Positions 2,363-16,496 of a stretch of DNA of 64,000 nucleotides are shown here, piece by piece (position 1 is the first letter of the stretch; every line of letters starts with the position of its first letter). The stretch comes from Thermodesulfatator indicus DSM 15286 (GTDB lineage Bacteria; Desulfobacterota; Thermodesulfobacteria; Thermodesulfobacteriales; Thermodesulfatatoraceae): assembly GCF_000217795.1 (NCBI RefSeq), contig NC_015681.1, positions 1,479,244 through 1,543,243 on the forward strand, written 5' to 3'. Both the position numbers and the translations under genes were made by a program. Under the pieces are notes generated by a model, which ran no database searches, was not told the origin of the DNA, and saw only the letters and a list, made by a program, of their open reading frames with translations.

Positions 2363-3628
2363 ATGCGGATAGAAATTACCGAACCTTTACCGATGAAATT
2401 GGGCATAAATGGTTTAGGCCGTATTGGCAAGTTAACCTTATGGCATCATGTAGCTAGAAAATCTTTCAAGGAAATAGTGGTCAACCTGGGCCGCCAGGCC
2501 GGCACATCTTTACAGGACGTAGCTAATTATATTGAAAAAGATTCTACTTACGGTTGGCTACCGGTTTATCTACACGGATATCGCTCAGGTCGTGTGATAG
2601 AAAACCTTAACGAAGCCGAAGGCACTATGACTGTTGACGGTGTGCCGGTAAGGATTTTGCGAGAGCATCGCAATCCCGCTGATATTGGCTGGAAGAAATA
2701 CGACGTGCGCCTGGTAATTGATTCAACCGGGCGTTTCCGAGATCCTACCACTGATCCTGAAGCCTCTGGCGGGGCCCTGAGGGGGCATCTGGCGGCAGGT
2801 GCTGAAAAGGTCATACTTTCTGCTCCTTTTAAAATAAAGGACAAAGAACTCGGTATGCCAGAAGATGCTGTAACAGTGGTTTATGGCATAAACGAAGGAG
2901 ATTTTTTACCGGAAAAACATCAGGTTATTAGTGCCGCTTCTTGTACCACTACTTGTCTGGCCTACATGATAAAACCTTTACTAGATTATTTTGGGGCAGA
3001 TAGAATCCTTTCTGCATCAATGGTTACAGTGCATGCGGCTACTTCTTCTCAAGCAGTTCTTGACCGGGTTCCCAAAGCCGGAGCAACAGATCTTCGCAAA
3101 ATAAGAAGTATTTTCAACAATATTATTTTGACTACTACAGGAGCAGCTAAAGCCCTTTCTCTGGTTATCCCTGAAATGAAAAAGATCGGCTTTATTGCCG
3201 AAAGTGTAAGGGTACCAACCAGTACGGGTAGTTTGATTATCTTGGTTATAAACATTCAAGAAGAAAGTCTTGAAAATCGAGTTACCAGAAATGTAATTAA
3301 CAAAATTTACGAAGAGGCCGCCAAAGGGCCTTATCATCCTTATTTGATGTTTACTATGGAACAGAATGTTTCGGCTGACATTATTGGCTACCCTAAAGCA
3401 GCAGCTATCATTGAAGGAGAAGAAACTCATACCAGAACCGGCCTGGTAAAAGTAGACTTAACCAAAGCATGCGGGCCAGATGGTCAAAAAATTGAGGGCC
3501 TAACATGTGCTCAGATAGAAATTCCTGTTACCCAGGCGGTTATCTACGGATGGTATGATAACGAACTGGGCTCCTATACATATATGCTGGGAGAATTGAC
3601 CCTCCACATAGCCCAACAAATACTTTAG
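2363..3628 (+). CDS. gap: Glyceraldehyde-3-phosphate dehydrogenase, long variant
   Basis: Interconverts glyceraldehyde 3-phosphate and 1,3-bisphosphoglycerate in the cytoplasm. The Rossmann motif GINGLGRIGK lies at residues 14-23, the catalytic Cys194 in SAASCTTTC, and the active-site His in MVTVHAATSSQ; WYDNELGSYTYM closes the protein as in other type I enzymes. At 421 residues it is clearly longer than the usual 330-340, with extra sequence after the first beta-alpha unit. Where typical NAD enzymes read Asn-Asp after the second strand, this one reads N41-L42-G43-R44, so the usual NAD-ribose Asp is absent; NADP or dual use is possible (inference). The start is set by a strong Shine-Dalgarno, AAGGAGGAGG. 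pgk follows 11 bp later and tpiA after that, so they are probably one operon. Confidence 0.93.
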   Translation: MRIEITEPLPMKLGINGLGRIGKLTLWHHVARKSFKEIVVNLGRQAGTSLQDVANYIEKDSTYGWLPVYLHGYRSGRVIENLNEAEGTMTVDGVPVRILREHRNPADIGWKKYDVRLVIDSTGRFRDPTTDPEASGGALRGHLAAGAEKVILSAPFKIKDKELGMPEDAVTVVYGINEGDFLPEKHQVISAASCTTTCLAYMIKPLLDYFGADRILSASMVTVHAATSSQAVLDRVPKAGATDLRKIRSIFNNIILTTTGAAKALSLVIPEMKKIGFIAESVRVPTSTGSLIILVINIQEESLENRVTRNVINKIYEEAAKGPYHPYLMFTMEQNVSADIIGYPKAAAIIEGEETHTRTGLVKVDLTKACGPDGQKIEGLTCAQIEIPVTQAVIYGWYDNELGSYTYMLGELTLHIAQQIL

Positions 3629-8405: not shown

Positions 8406-8520
8406 GGCTTTACAGTGCCATAATTATTATAACTTGTGAAGAGCTGTTCTACTGTCTAAGTGCTTAGTATTTCACGAAATGGCCGCAAAATTAAAGAATA
8501 AAAAAAAGAAAATTAGAAAA

Positions 8521-9369
8521 TCAGAGGAATATATGCGCCAATTCTTGAGCTTCTTTTTCAGTTTGACTTATCATTTGGTTTACAGCATCAGCGGCTAAGT
8601 TGAATTTTTCTTTGGCAAGTTCAATAATGATTTCTCGTTCTATTTGAGAAGTTTCTTTATTGTATTTCAGGAAGGAAGAAAGGAAAATTCCGGGTTCTAC
8701 TTCAGGGAAGTGGTGTTTTGCTATGGCCTCTGTAAGATAAGCGGGGAGTTCCCATTCTTCAGCCATAAGATGGCCTACATTTTGATGATCATAACCTAAA
8801 GTCTTTTTTTCTATTTCTAGAATTTCTATTTCGGGATCATTATTCCAGGTATCAATTACTGGACAATATTTTTCATGGAATGTATTTAGAATAACAGGGA
8901 TAGCAATGTCTTGAAGTAAACCAGCACTAAAGGCTTCTACATTATAATGAGGATGCAGGGCATGGGCGATTTTTCGGGCCAATGTTCCTCTTTTGGCAGC
9001 AGTTAGCCAGAACAGTTTGTAGTCAAGGCAGGGAGTATTGATAGGAGGTAAGGCTTCTTTAACGGCTAGAGGGAGAAGGAGTGATTCAAGCCTTGCCCTA
9101 CCTAGTAAAGCTACAGCATGTTCTATATTGTTTACTTGTCGCGGAAGGCCAAAGGCGGCTGAATTTACCGTGCGTAAAACCTTAAGATGAAGGCCAGGAT
9201 CAGCGGCTACCCTTTGAGCTATATCTTTTACAGAAGTTTTGGGGTCTCGAATGGCCTCAAGGGCCAAAAGGGCGGCTCTTGGTAAATAAGGTAGTTCAAA
9301 ATTTTTTAACTTTTTACGTAATTCCTCCCGCGGGTTTTTCTTCTTTTTTAAAAAATTTAAAAGTCCCAT
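8521..9369 (-). CDS. HDOD-domain signalling protein
   Basis: A 282-residue soluble protein. After a basic N-terminus (LKKKKNPREELRKKL), an HDOD domain spans roughly residues 25-220, with LPRAALLALEAI, DPGLHLKVLRTVNSAAFG and the helix IEHAVALLGRARLESLLL. HDOD proteins are degenerate HD-family scaffolds in bacterial signalling, without the metal-binding HD pair. It starts in the TAATG overlap with the end of the potassium channel gene, so translation is probably coupled. The target is unknown. Confidence 0.85.
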   Translation of the reverse strand: MGLLNFLKKKKNPREELRKKLKNFELPYLPRAALLALEAIRDPKTSVKDIAQRVAADPGLHLKVLRTVNSAAFGLPRQVNNIEHAVALLGRARLESLLLPLAVKEALPPINTPCLDYKLFWLTAAKRGTLARKIAHALHPHYNVEAFSAGLLQDIAIPVILNTFHEKYCPVIDTWNNDPEIEILEIEKKTLGYDHQNVGHLMAEEWELPAYLTEAIAKHHFPEVEPGIFLSSFLKYNKETSQIEREIIIELAKEKFNLAADAVNQMISQTEKEAQELAHIFL

Positions 9370-10283
9370 TAGTCAGCTCTCCTCGCAATACGGTTAGTAA
9401 AAATGGCCAGAAGTCCGCCTAACATAACATAGCCTGTTATTACTTCTAGAATGGCTATTACCTGGCCTAAAAGGGAGTTGGGAATGACATCGCCATAACC
9501 AAGAGTAGTAAGGGTTACAATGCTGTAATAAAGAGGTGAAAGAGGAGTAGGGTATTTCCCATAATCTACTCCTACCAAATGATATAAATAGGCGAAAAAT
9601 AAGGCCTGAAAAACAATCAAAAGGCACCATCTTCCAAGGCTTCGGCCACAATCAGAGGTCAACCACCATAAAAAATAGAGAATACGAGCTAGACGGCCCT
9701 GTTGGCGGAATTCTTCAAGATAATTTTCATCTATAATGTGACGCCTTACTAAATAAGCTCCTGAAAAGTTTATATCTCTGATGTCAGTACCTATCCAGAT
9801 GGCCTTTTTGTAGCCTTTTATCATGCGCAGATGAGCTCCTCTTAAGTCCGCGTCTTTAAAAATAGCGCCTTCTACTCGACTTAAGTTGAGATGGGCTTCT
9901 TTAAATTTGGCGCCGGAGAAATCGGCTTCGCGCAGGTCAGCTTCTCTTAAGCGAGCTAAAGAAAAATCAGCACATTTAGCATCAGCCCCTTTTAGAGTGG
10001 CTTTGGTGAAAGAGGCATGTCTGAATTTGGCGTTAAAAAGTCGAGCTTTTTTAAGATTAGCCATACCAAAACCAGCAGCTTCAGCGTCAACCCCTTCAAG
10101 ATTAGCACCTTCGAGGTCAGCCCCGGTAAAATCAGCCCCTTTAAGATTGGCACCGGTAAAAAGGGCTCTCTTTAGGTTGGCCCGGAAGAATTTGGCGCCG
10201 GCCAGGTCTTCCCCGCTGAAATCATGGCCTTCCAAGTCCCTCCCGCTAAAATCCAGTTGTTTTAGATTACTTTGTGTTTTCAT
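9369..10283 (-). CDS. Pentapeptide-repeat protein fused to a two-helix potassium channel
   Basis: The N-terminal half (about residues 10-165) is a run of A(D/N)LXX pentapeptide repeats such as ANLKGADFTGADLEGANLEG, expected to form a quadrilateral beta-helix. The C-terminal quarter has two membrane helices around a pore loop with the selectivity filter TTLGYGDVIP, as in KcsA-type channels. So this is a cytoplasmic repeat sensor or scaffold domain joined to a potassium channel in 304 residues. No RCK/TrkA-N domain is present; the pentapeptide domain takes the place of the usual regulatory module. It is co-transcribed with the HDOD gene (1-bp stop/start overlap). Confidence 0.85.
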   Translation of the reverse strand: MKTQSNLKQLDFSGRDLEGHDFSGEDLAGAKFFRANLKRALFTGANLKGADFTGADLEGANLEGVDAEAAGFGMANLKKARLFNAKFRHASFTKATLKGADAKCADFSLARLREADLREADFSGAKFKEAHLNLSRVEGAIFKDADLRGAHLRMIKGYKKAIWIGTDIRDINFSGAYLVRRHIIDENYLEEFRQQGRLARILYFLWWLTSDCGRSLGRWCLLIVFQALFFAYLYHLVGVDYGKYPTPLSPLYYSIVTLTTLGYGDVIPNSLLGQVIAILEVITGYVMLGGLLAIFTNRIARRAD

Positions 10284-13528: not shown

Positions 13529-13604
13529 GCGGGAGTAGCTCAGTTGGTAGAGCGCCACCTTGCCAAGGTGGATGTCGCGGGTTCAAGTCCCGTCTCCCGC
13601 TCCA
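13529..13604 (+). tRNA. tRNA-Gly (GCC)
   Basis: The 7-bp acceptor GCGGGAG/CTCCCGC, the D-arm GCTCAGTTGGTAGAGC, the anticodon stem CCACC/GGTGG with anticodon GCC at 13562-13564, and the T-arm GTTCAAGTC are all present. Discriminator T and an encoded CCA end the gene at 13604. A T-rich tract follows. Confidence 0.98.
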
Positions 13605-13695
13605 TTTTTTATTTTTAACCCTCCCTCGCCATTTCCGCTTGTTTTTATATCAGGCTGTTTATACTTACATAGGGCATTTTATCATTTTTGATCTT

Positions 13696-13744
13696 AAATA
13701 CCTCCTTGCTTGGGATATCCTTTCCAAAAAGCAAGGAGGTATTT
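13696..13744 (+). promoter_or_regulatory. Perfect 16-bp hairpin burying the cooS ribosome binding site
   Basis: AAATACCTCCTTGCTT (13696-13711) is exactly complementary to AAGCAAGGAGGTATTT (13729-13744); the ATG of cooS is the next base, 13745. The Shine-Dalgarno AAGGAGGT is entirely inside the 3' arm, so in the folded RNA it is paired. The 17-nt loop contains the self-complementary GGATATCC, which could allow loop-loop pairing. No T tract follows, so it is not a simple terminator. It may be an RNA switch, a thermosensor, a target for a protein that binds RNA, or a DNA operator. Confidence 0.75.
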
Positions 13745-15649
13745 ATGCCGAAAGAAAAAAGAGAACTTAAAGACCTAAGTATAGACCCGGCTGTTCTTGA
13801 TATCCTTTCCCTGGCCAAACAAAAAAATTACGAAACTGTATGGGATCGGCTTGAGCGGCAATCACCCCACTGTAAGTTCGGTAGCAGTGGACTCTGCTGC
13901 CGTAATTGTGTTATGGGGCCATGCCGTATTACAGAAAAGACCCCCAAAGGGGTTTGTGGGGCTGATGCCGCGACTATTGTGGCCAGAAACCTGATCAGGG
14001 CCTTGGCCGCAGGGGCGGCGGCCCACTCAGACCATGGCCGGGCGGTGGCGGTTTTATTTAACGAGGTGGCCCAGGGGAAAAACAAAGATTACCAGATTGC
14101 CGATGAGGCCAAGCTTAAATCTATAGCTGAAAAATTCCATATACATACTTCGCAGGACATTACTTCTATAGCCAAAGAAGTGGCCCGAGTGGCCTTAGAA
14201 GATTTTGGTAAGCAAGACGAGAAGGCCCTTAATTTTTTAGAGGCCTACGCTCCGCAAAAAAGAAAAGAGACATGGCAAAAGGTTGAAGAGGCTCTTTTCT
14301 CCCAAACTGGCAAAAAGATGGGTATTTTGCCTCGGAATATAGATCGGGAAATAACCGAGTGTATGCACCGTACTCATATGGGAGTAGATAACCAGGCCCT
14401 TTCTTTATTGGTCCAAGGAGTGAGGACAGCCCTGGCTGATGGCTGGGGAGGCTCCCTTATTGCCACTGAGCTTCAAGATGTGCTTTTTGGTACCCCTGAT
14501 AAGAAAGTTATTAAAGCCAACTTGGGGGTTCTGAAAGAAGATCAGGTAAATATCATTGTTCACGGCCACGAACCGATTCTTTCCGAACAGGTAGTAGCCG
14601 CAGCCATGAGCCCGGAAATGCAGGAAAAGGCCAAAGAAGTAGGAGCCCAGGGTATAAATGTGGCTGGTATTTGTTGTACGGCCAATGAAGTGCTTATGAG
14701 GCTAGGGGTTCCAGTGGCCGGGAACATGATTCATCAGGAACTGGCCATAATGACCGGGGTGGTAGAGGCTATGGTGGTGGATGTGCAGTGTATTTTCCCC
14801 TCGCTAGGGCCTCTGGCCAAATGCTTTCACACTAAGTTTATTTCTACCAGTGACCGGGCGGCTTTTCCTGAGGCTGTTCATATTCAATTTGATGAGCATC
14901 ACGCCCGCGAAGTGGCCCAAAAGATAGTGGAAACTGCGATAGAGGCCTTCAAAGAGCGCGATCCGCAAAAAGTTCACATACCCCAAGAGGTAGAGGAAGC
15001 TGTGGTAGGTTTTAGTGTTGAAGAAATAATTAAAATTCTGGGTGGCAGCCCCAAACCTTTGGTTGACGCTATTTTGGCGGGAAAAATCAAGGGCGTGGTA
15101 GGTATTGTCGGCTGTAATAACCCCAAAATAAAACATGACGCCTTTCATATAAGCTTAACCAAAGAGTTGATCAAAAAAGATATCCTTGTTATCGGCACAG
15201 GTTGTTGGGCTATTGCCGCGGCCAAGGCTGGCTTCATGAAACTTGACGCTCAGGCTTTAGCCGGAGAGGGCTTAAAAGAGGTGTGTAAGGCCCTTGATAT
15301 TCCGCCGGTTTTGCACATGGGCTCCTGTGTGGATTGTTCACGCATGCTGGTGTTGGCGGCAGCCCTGGCGGATTATCTCAAGGTAGATATTTCCGACCTA
15401 CCTCTGGTTGGCTCTGCTCCAGAATGGACGACAGAAAAGGCCGTATCTATCGGCACTTACTTTGTAGCTTCGGGGGTGCCTGTTCATCTCTGGCCTATGC
15501 CGCCCATAGGGGGAAGCGAAGAGGTAGTCGGTATTCTCACCGAAGGGGTTAAGGATCTGCTTGGCGGTTATTTCTTCATAGAAGAAGATCCGGTTAAAAC
15601 GGCCTCCCGAATGGAGAGAATCATTATGGAAAAACGTAAAGCTTTTTAA
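13745..15649 (+). CDS. cooS: Ni-Fe carbon monoxide dehydrogenase, catalytic subunit
   Basis: Catalyses CO + H2O = CO2 + 2 e- + 2 H+ at a Ni-Fe-S C-cluster. The N-terminal cluster Cys are visible: C43, C51, C52, C55, C60 and C71 in CKFGSSGLCC, CVMGPC and GVCGAD. Later C-cluster motifs include NVAGICCTANEVLMR, VDVQCIFPSL, VVGIVGCNNPK, VIGTGCWAIAA and HMGSCVDCSRM. Length 634, typical of monofunctional CooS. I set the start at ATG 13745 (AAGGAGGT upstream) rather than at an upstream in-frame ATG at 13688, because the latter would run through the hairpin. No cooF, cooC or acsB is adjacent; the partner may be a general ferredoxin. A PAS-LytTR regulator follows. Confidence 0.95.
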   Translation: MPKEKRELKDLSIDPAVLDILSLAKQKNYETVWDRLERQSPHCKFGSSGLCCRNCVMGPCRITEKTPKGVCGADAATIVARNLIRALAAGAAAHSDHGRAVAVLFNEVAQGKNKDYQIADEAKLKSIAEKFHIHTSQDITSIAKEVARVALEDFGKQDEKALNFLEAYAPQKRKETWQKVEEALFSQTGKKMGILPRNIDREITECMHRTHMGVDNQALSLLVQGVRTALADGWGGSLIATELQDVLFGTPDKKVIKANLGVLKEDQVNIIVHGHEPILSEQVVAAAMSPEMQEKAKEVGAQGINVAGICCTANEVLMRLGVPVAGNMIHQELAIMTGVVEAMVVDVQCIFPSLGPLAKCFHTKFISTSDRAAFPEAVHIQFDEHHAREVAQKIVETAIEAFKERDPQKVHIPQEVEEAVVGFSVEEIIKILGGSPKPLVDAILAGKIKGVVGIVGCNNPKIKHDAFHISLTKELIKKDILVIGTGCWAIAAAKAGFMKLDAQALAGEGLKEVCKALDIPPVLHMGSCVDCSRMLVLAAALADYLKVDISDLPLVGSAPEWTTEKAVSIGTYFVASGVPVHLWPMPPIGGSEEVVGILTEGVKDLLGGYFFIEEDPVKTASRMERIIMEKRKAF

Positions 15650-15658
15650 GCTGCTCTT

Positions 15659-15700
15659 TGGCCGGGAAGATGTTATCTTTGAAGTAAAACTTCCCGGCCA
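15659..15700 (+). terminator. Hairpin between cooS and the PAS-LytTR gene
   Basis: TGGCCGGGAAG (15659-15669) and CTTCCCGGCCA (15690-15700) form a perfect 11-bp stem with a 20-nt loop. It begins 9 bp after the cooS stop and ends 3 bp before the next ATG. There is no T run, so it may be a weak terminator, an attenuator or an mRNA-stabilising stem. Confidence 0.5.
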
Positions 15701-15703
15701 GAT

Positions 15704-16393
15704 ATGATTCATATTATTGCAGAACTTTTTAGAAATTTTGATGTAGGCTTAGTTATATTTGACGACGAATTCAATATCATTTGTGTAAATGATTTTATAA
15801 AGAAGAAGTTTTCCTTCCCGGTTTTTCAAAATTCCAATCTTTTAGCCTTTCACGATGAGCAGGCTAAAGAAAAAATTAGAAAGATGAAAGAAGAGGCTGC
15901 CTCTAAAGGGCAAAGCCACAGTTACATATTGAAAATTTTTAATGTGGAACATGGTGACGAAATTTTCCTTTTAGGGAAGGTCTTTTTGTTAGAAGGAGAT
16001 TGTGAATACAGGTTTTTAGCTGTTCTTTTTGATATCACGTTTTTGACTACGGACAGGAAACATAAAATTTTAAAAATTCCTGTATATGATGGCGAGGACA
16101 TTTTATTTCTGGAAACAAAAGATATTGAATTCTTTAAAGCCGCTGGTAACTATACGGAGATTTTCTGCCAAGATAAAATCTATCTATGCCCTTTGTCCTT
16201 AGCCAAGATAGAAAAATTTTTAGATGAACGCCAATTCTTTCGTATTCACCGCAGCTACATTGTGAACCTAACCTTTATTGAAAGGCTTATCAGAGAAGGG
16301 ACACGCCATTATCTCCTTTTGAGGAGCAAGCAAATTTTGCCAATAAGTAAAGGGAAGAGCAAGGCCTTTCTTAAGATCTTCGGGCTTAAATAA
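15704..16393 (+). CDS. PAS-LytTR transcription regulator resembling the CO sensor RcoM
   Basis: 229 residues. An N-terminal PAS-like domain (about 1-115, with DVGLVIFDDEFNIICVND) is joined by FDITFLTT to a LytTR DNA-binding domain (about 125-229: KIPVYDGEDILFLETKDIEF, GNYTEIF, FFRIHRSYIVNL). The order, the linker and the start KIPVY of the LytTR domain match what I recall of RcoM, the haem-PAS regulator of CO metabolism in Burkholderia. His50 in LLAFHDEQAKEKI sits where RcoM has its proximal haem ligand; a Met matching its distal ligand is not evident, H83 and C100 being other candidates. The position right after cooS supports CO sensing. That haem is bound is an inference. No clear Shine-Dalgarno precedes the ATG. 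Confidence 0.8.
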   Translation: MIHIIAELFRNFDVGLVIFDDEFNIICVNDFIKKKFSFPVFQNSNLLAFHDEQAKEKIRKMKEEAASKGQSHSYILKIFNVEHGDEIFLLGKVFLLEGDCEYRFLAVLFDITFLTTDRKHKILKIPVYDGEDILFLETKDIEFFKAAGNYTEIFCQDKIYLCPLSLAKIEKFLDERQFFRIHRSYIVNLTFIERLIREGTRHYLLLRSKQILPISKGKSKAFLKIFGLK

Positions 16394-16409: not shown

Positions 16410-16496
16410 TGGTGCCGAGGGCGGGACTCGAACCCGCACGGGCTTGCGCCCACTGCCCCCTCAAGACAGCGTGTCTACCAATTCCACCACCTCGGC
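16410..16496 (-). tRNA. tRNA-Leu (GAG)
   Basis: On the minus strand the acceptor GCCGAGG/CCTCGGC, a class II variable arm (GGGCGCAAGCCC region), the T-arm GTTCGAGTC, discriminator A and an encoded CCA are present. The anticodon stem CTGTC/GGCAG holds anticodon GAG at 16460-16462. Length 87. Confidence 0.97.

Follow-up and report, generated by a model that had tools for sequence, protein, structure and literature searches.

The window analysed here is a stretch of 64,000 nucleotides from Thermodesulfatator indicus DSM 15286, whose genome is a single contig of 2,322,224 bases. In it, cooS, a gene for a monofunctional Ni-CO dehydrogenase, is followed 54 bp downstream by a gene for a PAS-LytTR transcription factor that resembles RcoM, and the pair is flanked by a tRNA-Gly and a tRNA-Leu gene. 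The features of the locus, in window coordinates, are:

13529..13604, plus strand: tRNA-Gly(GCC), upstream flank, outside the module (ARAGORN, Rfam)
13695..13745, plus strand: hairpin with 17-bp perfect arms and a 17-nt loop, carrying the cooS Shine-Dalgarno sequence in its 3′ arm; unconserved in relatives
13745..15649, plus strand: cooS, catalytic subunit of the monofunctional Ni-CO dehydrogenase, 634 aa (TIGR01702; metal-ligand residues invariant)
15659..15700, plus strand: hairpin just ahead of the rcoM start, with 11-bp arms and a 20-nt loop (ATGTTATCTTTGAAGTAAAA); the arms are entirely different between genera, pairing and loop are kept
15704..16393, plus strand: rcoM-like gene, PAS-LytTR transcription factor, 229 aa (ORF, Pfam, AlphaFold, PDB comparison, HHalign)
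15719..16045, plus strand: PAS sensor domain, residues 6-114 (AlphaFold model, PDB comparison)
15851..15853, plus strand: codon of His50, equivalent of the proximal haem ligand His74 of RcoM (alignments)
15932..15934, plus strand: codon of Lys77, in the column of RcoM Met104, the CO-replaceable distal ligand, with an uncertainty of one residue (alignments)
16067..16393, plus strand: LytTR DNA-binding domain, residues 122-229 (Pfam, PDB comparison)
16410..16496, minus strand: tRNA-Leu(GAG), downstream flank, outside the module (ARAGORN)

With 751 bits against TIGR01702, whose cut-off is 478, the product of cooS is a Ni-CODH catalytic subunit, and the Cys and His positions expected of such enzymes are invariant across the aligned CooS homologues; going by CODH-II, we assign these residues to the D, B and C clusters. 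The gene begins not at 13696, where the original prediction had the pair begin, but at the ATG at 13745, preceded by AAGGAGG; the open frame from the TTG at 13688 runs into the hairpin that carries the cooS ribosome-binding site. The genes 5′ of the pair presumably code for subunits of a pyruvate:ferredoxin oxidoreductase, and lon sits downstream. The host genome codes for a second CODH, 49% identical (G000:C1:2274635-2276395), which is probably a CODH/ACS subunit. Elsewhere in the window (9369-10283), inspection by eye suggested a protein in which pentapeptide repeats are joined to a potassium-channel pore (TTLTTLGYGDVIP).

The rcoM product is the sole LytTR protein of the host genome. Its C-terminal part matches the LytTR model PF04397 (residues 133-226, E = 1.9e-21), and its N-terminal part, for which no Pfam model gave a significant match, folds as a PAS domain in an AlphaFold model (pLDDT 80); a model of the PAS part alone, built without an alignment, reached a pLDDT of 50 and was set aside. 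Comparison with the PDB gave Z scores of about 12-13 to PAS chains (residues 6-112) and of 17 to a LytTR domain (residues 122-229). No haem-PAS structure was prominent among the structural matches listed, which has no bearing either way on haem. The architecture, an N-terminal PAS fused to a C-terminal LytTR domain with neither receiver nor membrane domain, is that of RcoM. Thus the gene pair, its 54-bp gap and the PAS-LytTR reading frame stood up to analysis, and the FDITFLTT linker and the KIPVY start of the LytTR domain are present as originally quoted.

A first family search covered 99 related genomes and yielded full-length matches in six relatives inside the host order and three beyond it; the single protein, when first run against named genomes, had given no match. 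Two phylum-wide searches of 395 genomes brought the full-length members to 21, cleanly apart from LytTR-only matches. In the column of RcoM Met104, 17 of these sequences, all from anaerobes, carry Lys (Lys-type), and we compared them with a set of seven classical, Met-type sequences made up of plasmid sequences and four genomes of the host phylum. The query of the first searches of the PDB and of plasmids was a Paraburkholderia xenovorans RcoM sequence, which is supported by plasmid homologues 79-82% identical to it over the whole length; the database plasmid sequence P0003 gave the same alignment. HHalign joined the Lys-type and Met-type sets over their full length with a probability of 99.9 (E = 5e-37). 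His50 fell on His74 in 32 of 32 MAFFT settings and is invariant in all 24 aligned sequences, where the only other invariant PAS columns are G15, V17 and N29. The placement of His50 at the proximal haem-ligand site, which the original prediction had proposed and for which it had suggested an alignment with RcoM PAS domains, is therefore borne out, as is the kinship to RcoM. The window protein shares with RcoM-1 and RcoM-2 of P. xenovorans the domain order, the proximal His, the linker, the KIPVY start and full-length profile homology, but it is only about 24% identical to them, has Lys77 for Met104 and is without the Cys94 loop; moreover, it is encoded beside cooS, whereas the plasmid RcoM of Paraburkholderia aromaticivorans, a close RcoM homologue, adjoins aerobic cox genes. 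Judged by its sequence, the protein is a genuine RcoM relative, and it is likely to bind haem through His50. No RcoM structure had been reported as of a 2022 review (PMC9670170), and when we searched a 2026 copy of the PDB by sequence, with an RcoM query, none came up.

The two sets differ at the position of the other haem ligand. In RcoM-1 this is Met104, the ligand that CO replaces (Bowman et al., 2016, as cited in PMC9670170). The column holds Lys in 17/17 Lys-type sequences, whose pairwise identity goes down to 23%, and Met in 7/7 Met-type sequences, and in a tree the two types fall cleanly into separate groups (support 99/97). Lys77 corresponds to Met104 in most alignments, while it comes to lie one residue off under some MAFFT settings and in an alignment of seven sequences; at neither register is there a Met, so the earlier remark that a distal Met is not apparent was right. 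Cys94 is the ferric ligand of RcoM-2, and the loop that bears it is absent from the window protein. Besides His50 and Lys77, the only conserved His, Met, Cys, Lys, Tyr or Arg of the Lys-type PAS domain is Met61. We rejected it as the distal ligand, as it lies 11 residues past His50 on the same helix, which makes it unlikely to reach the other face of the haem, and is missing in Met-type RcoM. The changed axial ligation that had been predicted thus gains a more specific form, in which Met104 would be replaced by an invariant Lys. That Lys77 is itself the distal ligand is a proposition to which we give slightly less than even odds. Somewhat less probable again is a haem bound by His50 in which Lys77 does not touch the iron, the haem being five-coordinate or water-bound and the Lys side chain lying on a propionate or stabilising CO, as the distal Arg does in FixL. 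In favour of this, Lys77 sits on the G strand (residues 74-79 in the AlphaFold model), near the site of that Arg, and its register is uncertain by one residue; against it, the column of Lys77 is that of a known ligand in 7/7 Met-type sequences, and the Lys type conserves no other residue fit to be the distal ligand. Taking Lys77 as the ligand, we tentatively propose, at somewhat less than even odds, a deep division of RcoM into two subtypes according to the ligand displaced by CO: a His/Lys form with which anaerobes, thermophiles among them, control Ni-CODH, and the known His/Met form, the ligand tuning affinity and redox behaviour to low-potential, hot settings. A Lys-type subfamily may, provisionally, be the new part of this finding; the literature that we searched, which covers the key RcoM papers in part, contained no description of one.

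The linkage of rcoM to cooS recurs well beyond T. indicus. The named loci are those of Thermodesulfatator autotrophicus S606, the nearest named relative, of Thermosulfurimonas dismutans S95 and of several MAGs. Of the 17 Lys-type loci, 15, spread over several families, have the two genes side by side, with cooS upstream of rcoM, as in the window genome, or downstream of it, in other families; one family has a cooF-like gene between them. The remaining two are G008, where rcoM is unlinked and cooS lies on a different contig, and G211, where only a cooS fragment was seen. The Lys-type gene of G211 (L089 7438-8538) adjoins genes that by eye resemble those of a type III CRISPR system (Cas6- and Cas10-like). 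In another genome (G010, L032 8076-9212), cooS is split near codon 603 by the gene of an IS630-like transposase (353 aa, DDE_3), and the downstream rcoM is intact. Of the 41 genomes sampled from the host order, 7 have a cooS with 67% or more identity to that of the window, exactly the seven that have rcoM (Fisher p about 4e-8, kinship not corrected for); the next-best cooS, 63% identical, belongs to G001, which is without rcoM. Met-type genes may stand in the same company, as in G248 and G364, where cooS, cooF-like and FNOR-like genes adjoin rcoM, so that both types occur beside cooS. As several families of the phylum have the pair, the two genes are found together far more often than by chance, and the recurrence that the original prediction had proposed to look for is there.

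This pattern bears on two further readings. The PAS domain might sense something else (NO, O2, the haem level or the redox state), with cooS regulated indirectly; RcoM reportedly binds NO as well, and two Lys-type genes do not stand beside cooS, but linkage in 15/17 loci and a conservation centred on the haem-ligand positions make this improbable. That an ordinary LytTR regulator with a haem-free PAS domain came to lie beside cooS by accident is a reading that we dismiss as highly improbable. The failure of the protein to match any PAS Pfam model speaks for it; co-occurrence and adjacency across families, the profile homology to RcoM and the invariance of His50 speak against it. The RcoM-like protein is likely to be a CO-responsive regulator of cooS.

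This role is supported by published RcoM genes that adjoin cooS in CO-grown anaerobes (PMC4703632, PMC6896113). An rcoM gene lies beside cooS in Geobacter sulfurreducens and its relatives, one of them the moderate thermophile Deferrisoma camini (PMC4703632), and rcoM-cooS clusters have been described in Rubrivivax gelatinosus (PMC4257681) and in Deferribacter autotrophicus, a thermophile able to grow on CO (PMC6896113). Such an arrangement in anaerobes, thermophiles included, is therefore already known, and the original prediction overstated its rarity and the novelty of an anaerobic, thermophilic RcoM. GSU2099 of G. sulfurreducens is like the window protein in its anaerobic cooS linkage and its length of about 230 aa (PMC4703632), and the D. 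autotrophicus RcoM in its cooS linkage and thermophily (PMC6896113); in both, however, rcoM precedes a cooS-cooC-cooF-FNOR operon, whereas in the window it follows a lone cooS. CooA resembles the proposed regulator in being a haem-based, CO-activated regulator of coo genes, but it has a CRP/FNR fold (a cNMP-binding domain with HTH_Crp), unrelated to the PAS-LytTR domains found here. The host genome codes for one clear CRP/FNR-family protein, which in our reading of its sequence is not a CooA, and this leaves the RcoM-like protein as the only candidate CO sensor found. CoxC also exerts CO-responsive LytTR control over CO oxidation genes; it differs in having a membrane MHYT sensor with copper and in repressing aerobic cox genes (PMC11347149).

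The target of RcoM-1 consists of three TTCNNGCA repeats, 12-13 bp apart (PMC11347149). Upstream of cooS, we found no statistically secure operator. An 8-bp direct repeat with a spacing of 11-14 bp beat 60 of 60 shuffles when all nine promoters were used; 3 of 60 shuffles were as good with one promoter per genus and 11 of 60 with near relatives removed, and other spacings scored similarly, so we rejected it as insecure. Perfect hairpins with arms of at least 9 bp and a loop of 17-23 nt number only four in the window; the one before cooS (17-bp arms) is the longest and the one before rcoM the second longest. The cooS leader hairpin is strong (z = -6.7), but no comparably stable fold exists in five relatives (T. 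autotrophicus and four others), and we discarded it as a conserved riboregulator. The hairpin ahead of rcoM occurs in five genomes of the order that have rcoM after cooS, with loops of 15-20 nt. Its positions at other loci are:

L027, about 3302-3348, minus strand: pre-rcoM hairpin
L028, about 8427-8475, minus strand: pre-rcoM hairpin
L031, about 9480-9525: pre-rcoM hairpin
L032, about 9336-9382: pre-rcoM hairpin

The arms, which differ widely in sequence between genera (GGCCGGGAAG, GGCTGAGGAAA, GACAGGGCAGA, AGCGGAAGCAGAG), are complementary throughout, and the loop follows a consensus close to ATGTTATNNTTT...AAA, in which the motif ATGTTAT..TTT is conserved. This motif resembles an extended -10 promoter (TGnTATAAT), of which Thermosulfurimonas has the exact sequence. 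G008 and G144, in which rcoM does not follow cooS, showed no such hairpin, and no Rfam match to the hairpin comes up to the curated threshold of its family. Most cooS genes at these loci have strong Shine-Dalgarno sequences; none was found before the rcoM ATG in L027, L028, L030, L031, L032 or the window. It is possible that rcoM is transcribed from inside the hairpin loop, and that in read-through mRNA from cooS the hairpin folds, such that this transcript is terminated or poorly translated.

Our main reading, to which we assign a probability of roughly 0.7, is that the window protein is a CO-activated haem-PAS-LytTR factor for the adjacent cooS, whichever residue serves as distal ligand; His/Lys ligation is less certain than this role. 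The protein would probably be dimeric, as RcoM is. Without CO, the reduced Fe(II) haem would have two protein ligands, His50, where the F helix begins, and Lys77, on the G strand. Incoming CO would take the place of Lys77 and move the PAS sheet, which would allow the LytTR domain to bind repeats upstream of cooS. CooS would then oxidise CO and pass the electrons to ferredoxin. T. indicus fixes CO2 via the Wood-Ljungdahl pathway (PMC12743299), and CO is therefore an intermediate inside the cell, besides being a possible vent gas. The CO that CooS oxidises might enter with vent fluid or escape from the autotrophic CODH/ACS, and with a monofunctional CooS set apart from that enzyme the cell could recover such internal CO.

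A heat-stable RcoM in which nature has altered the CO-displaced ligand would offer structural work a practical target, and the exchange of Met for Lys would amount to a natural experiment on how the ligand controls CO affinity. In hydrothermal autotrophs whose CO2 fixation runs through CO, the protein is also a clear candidate for control by CO.
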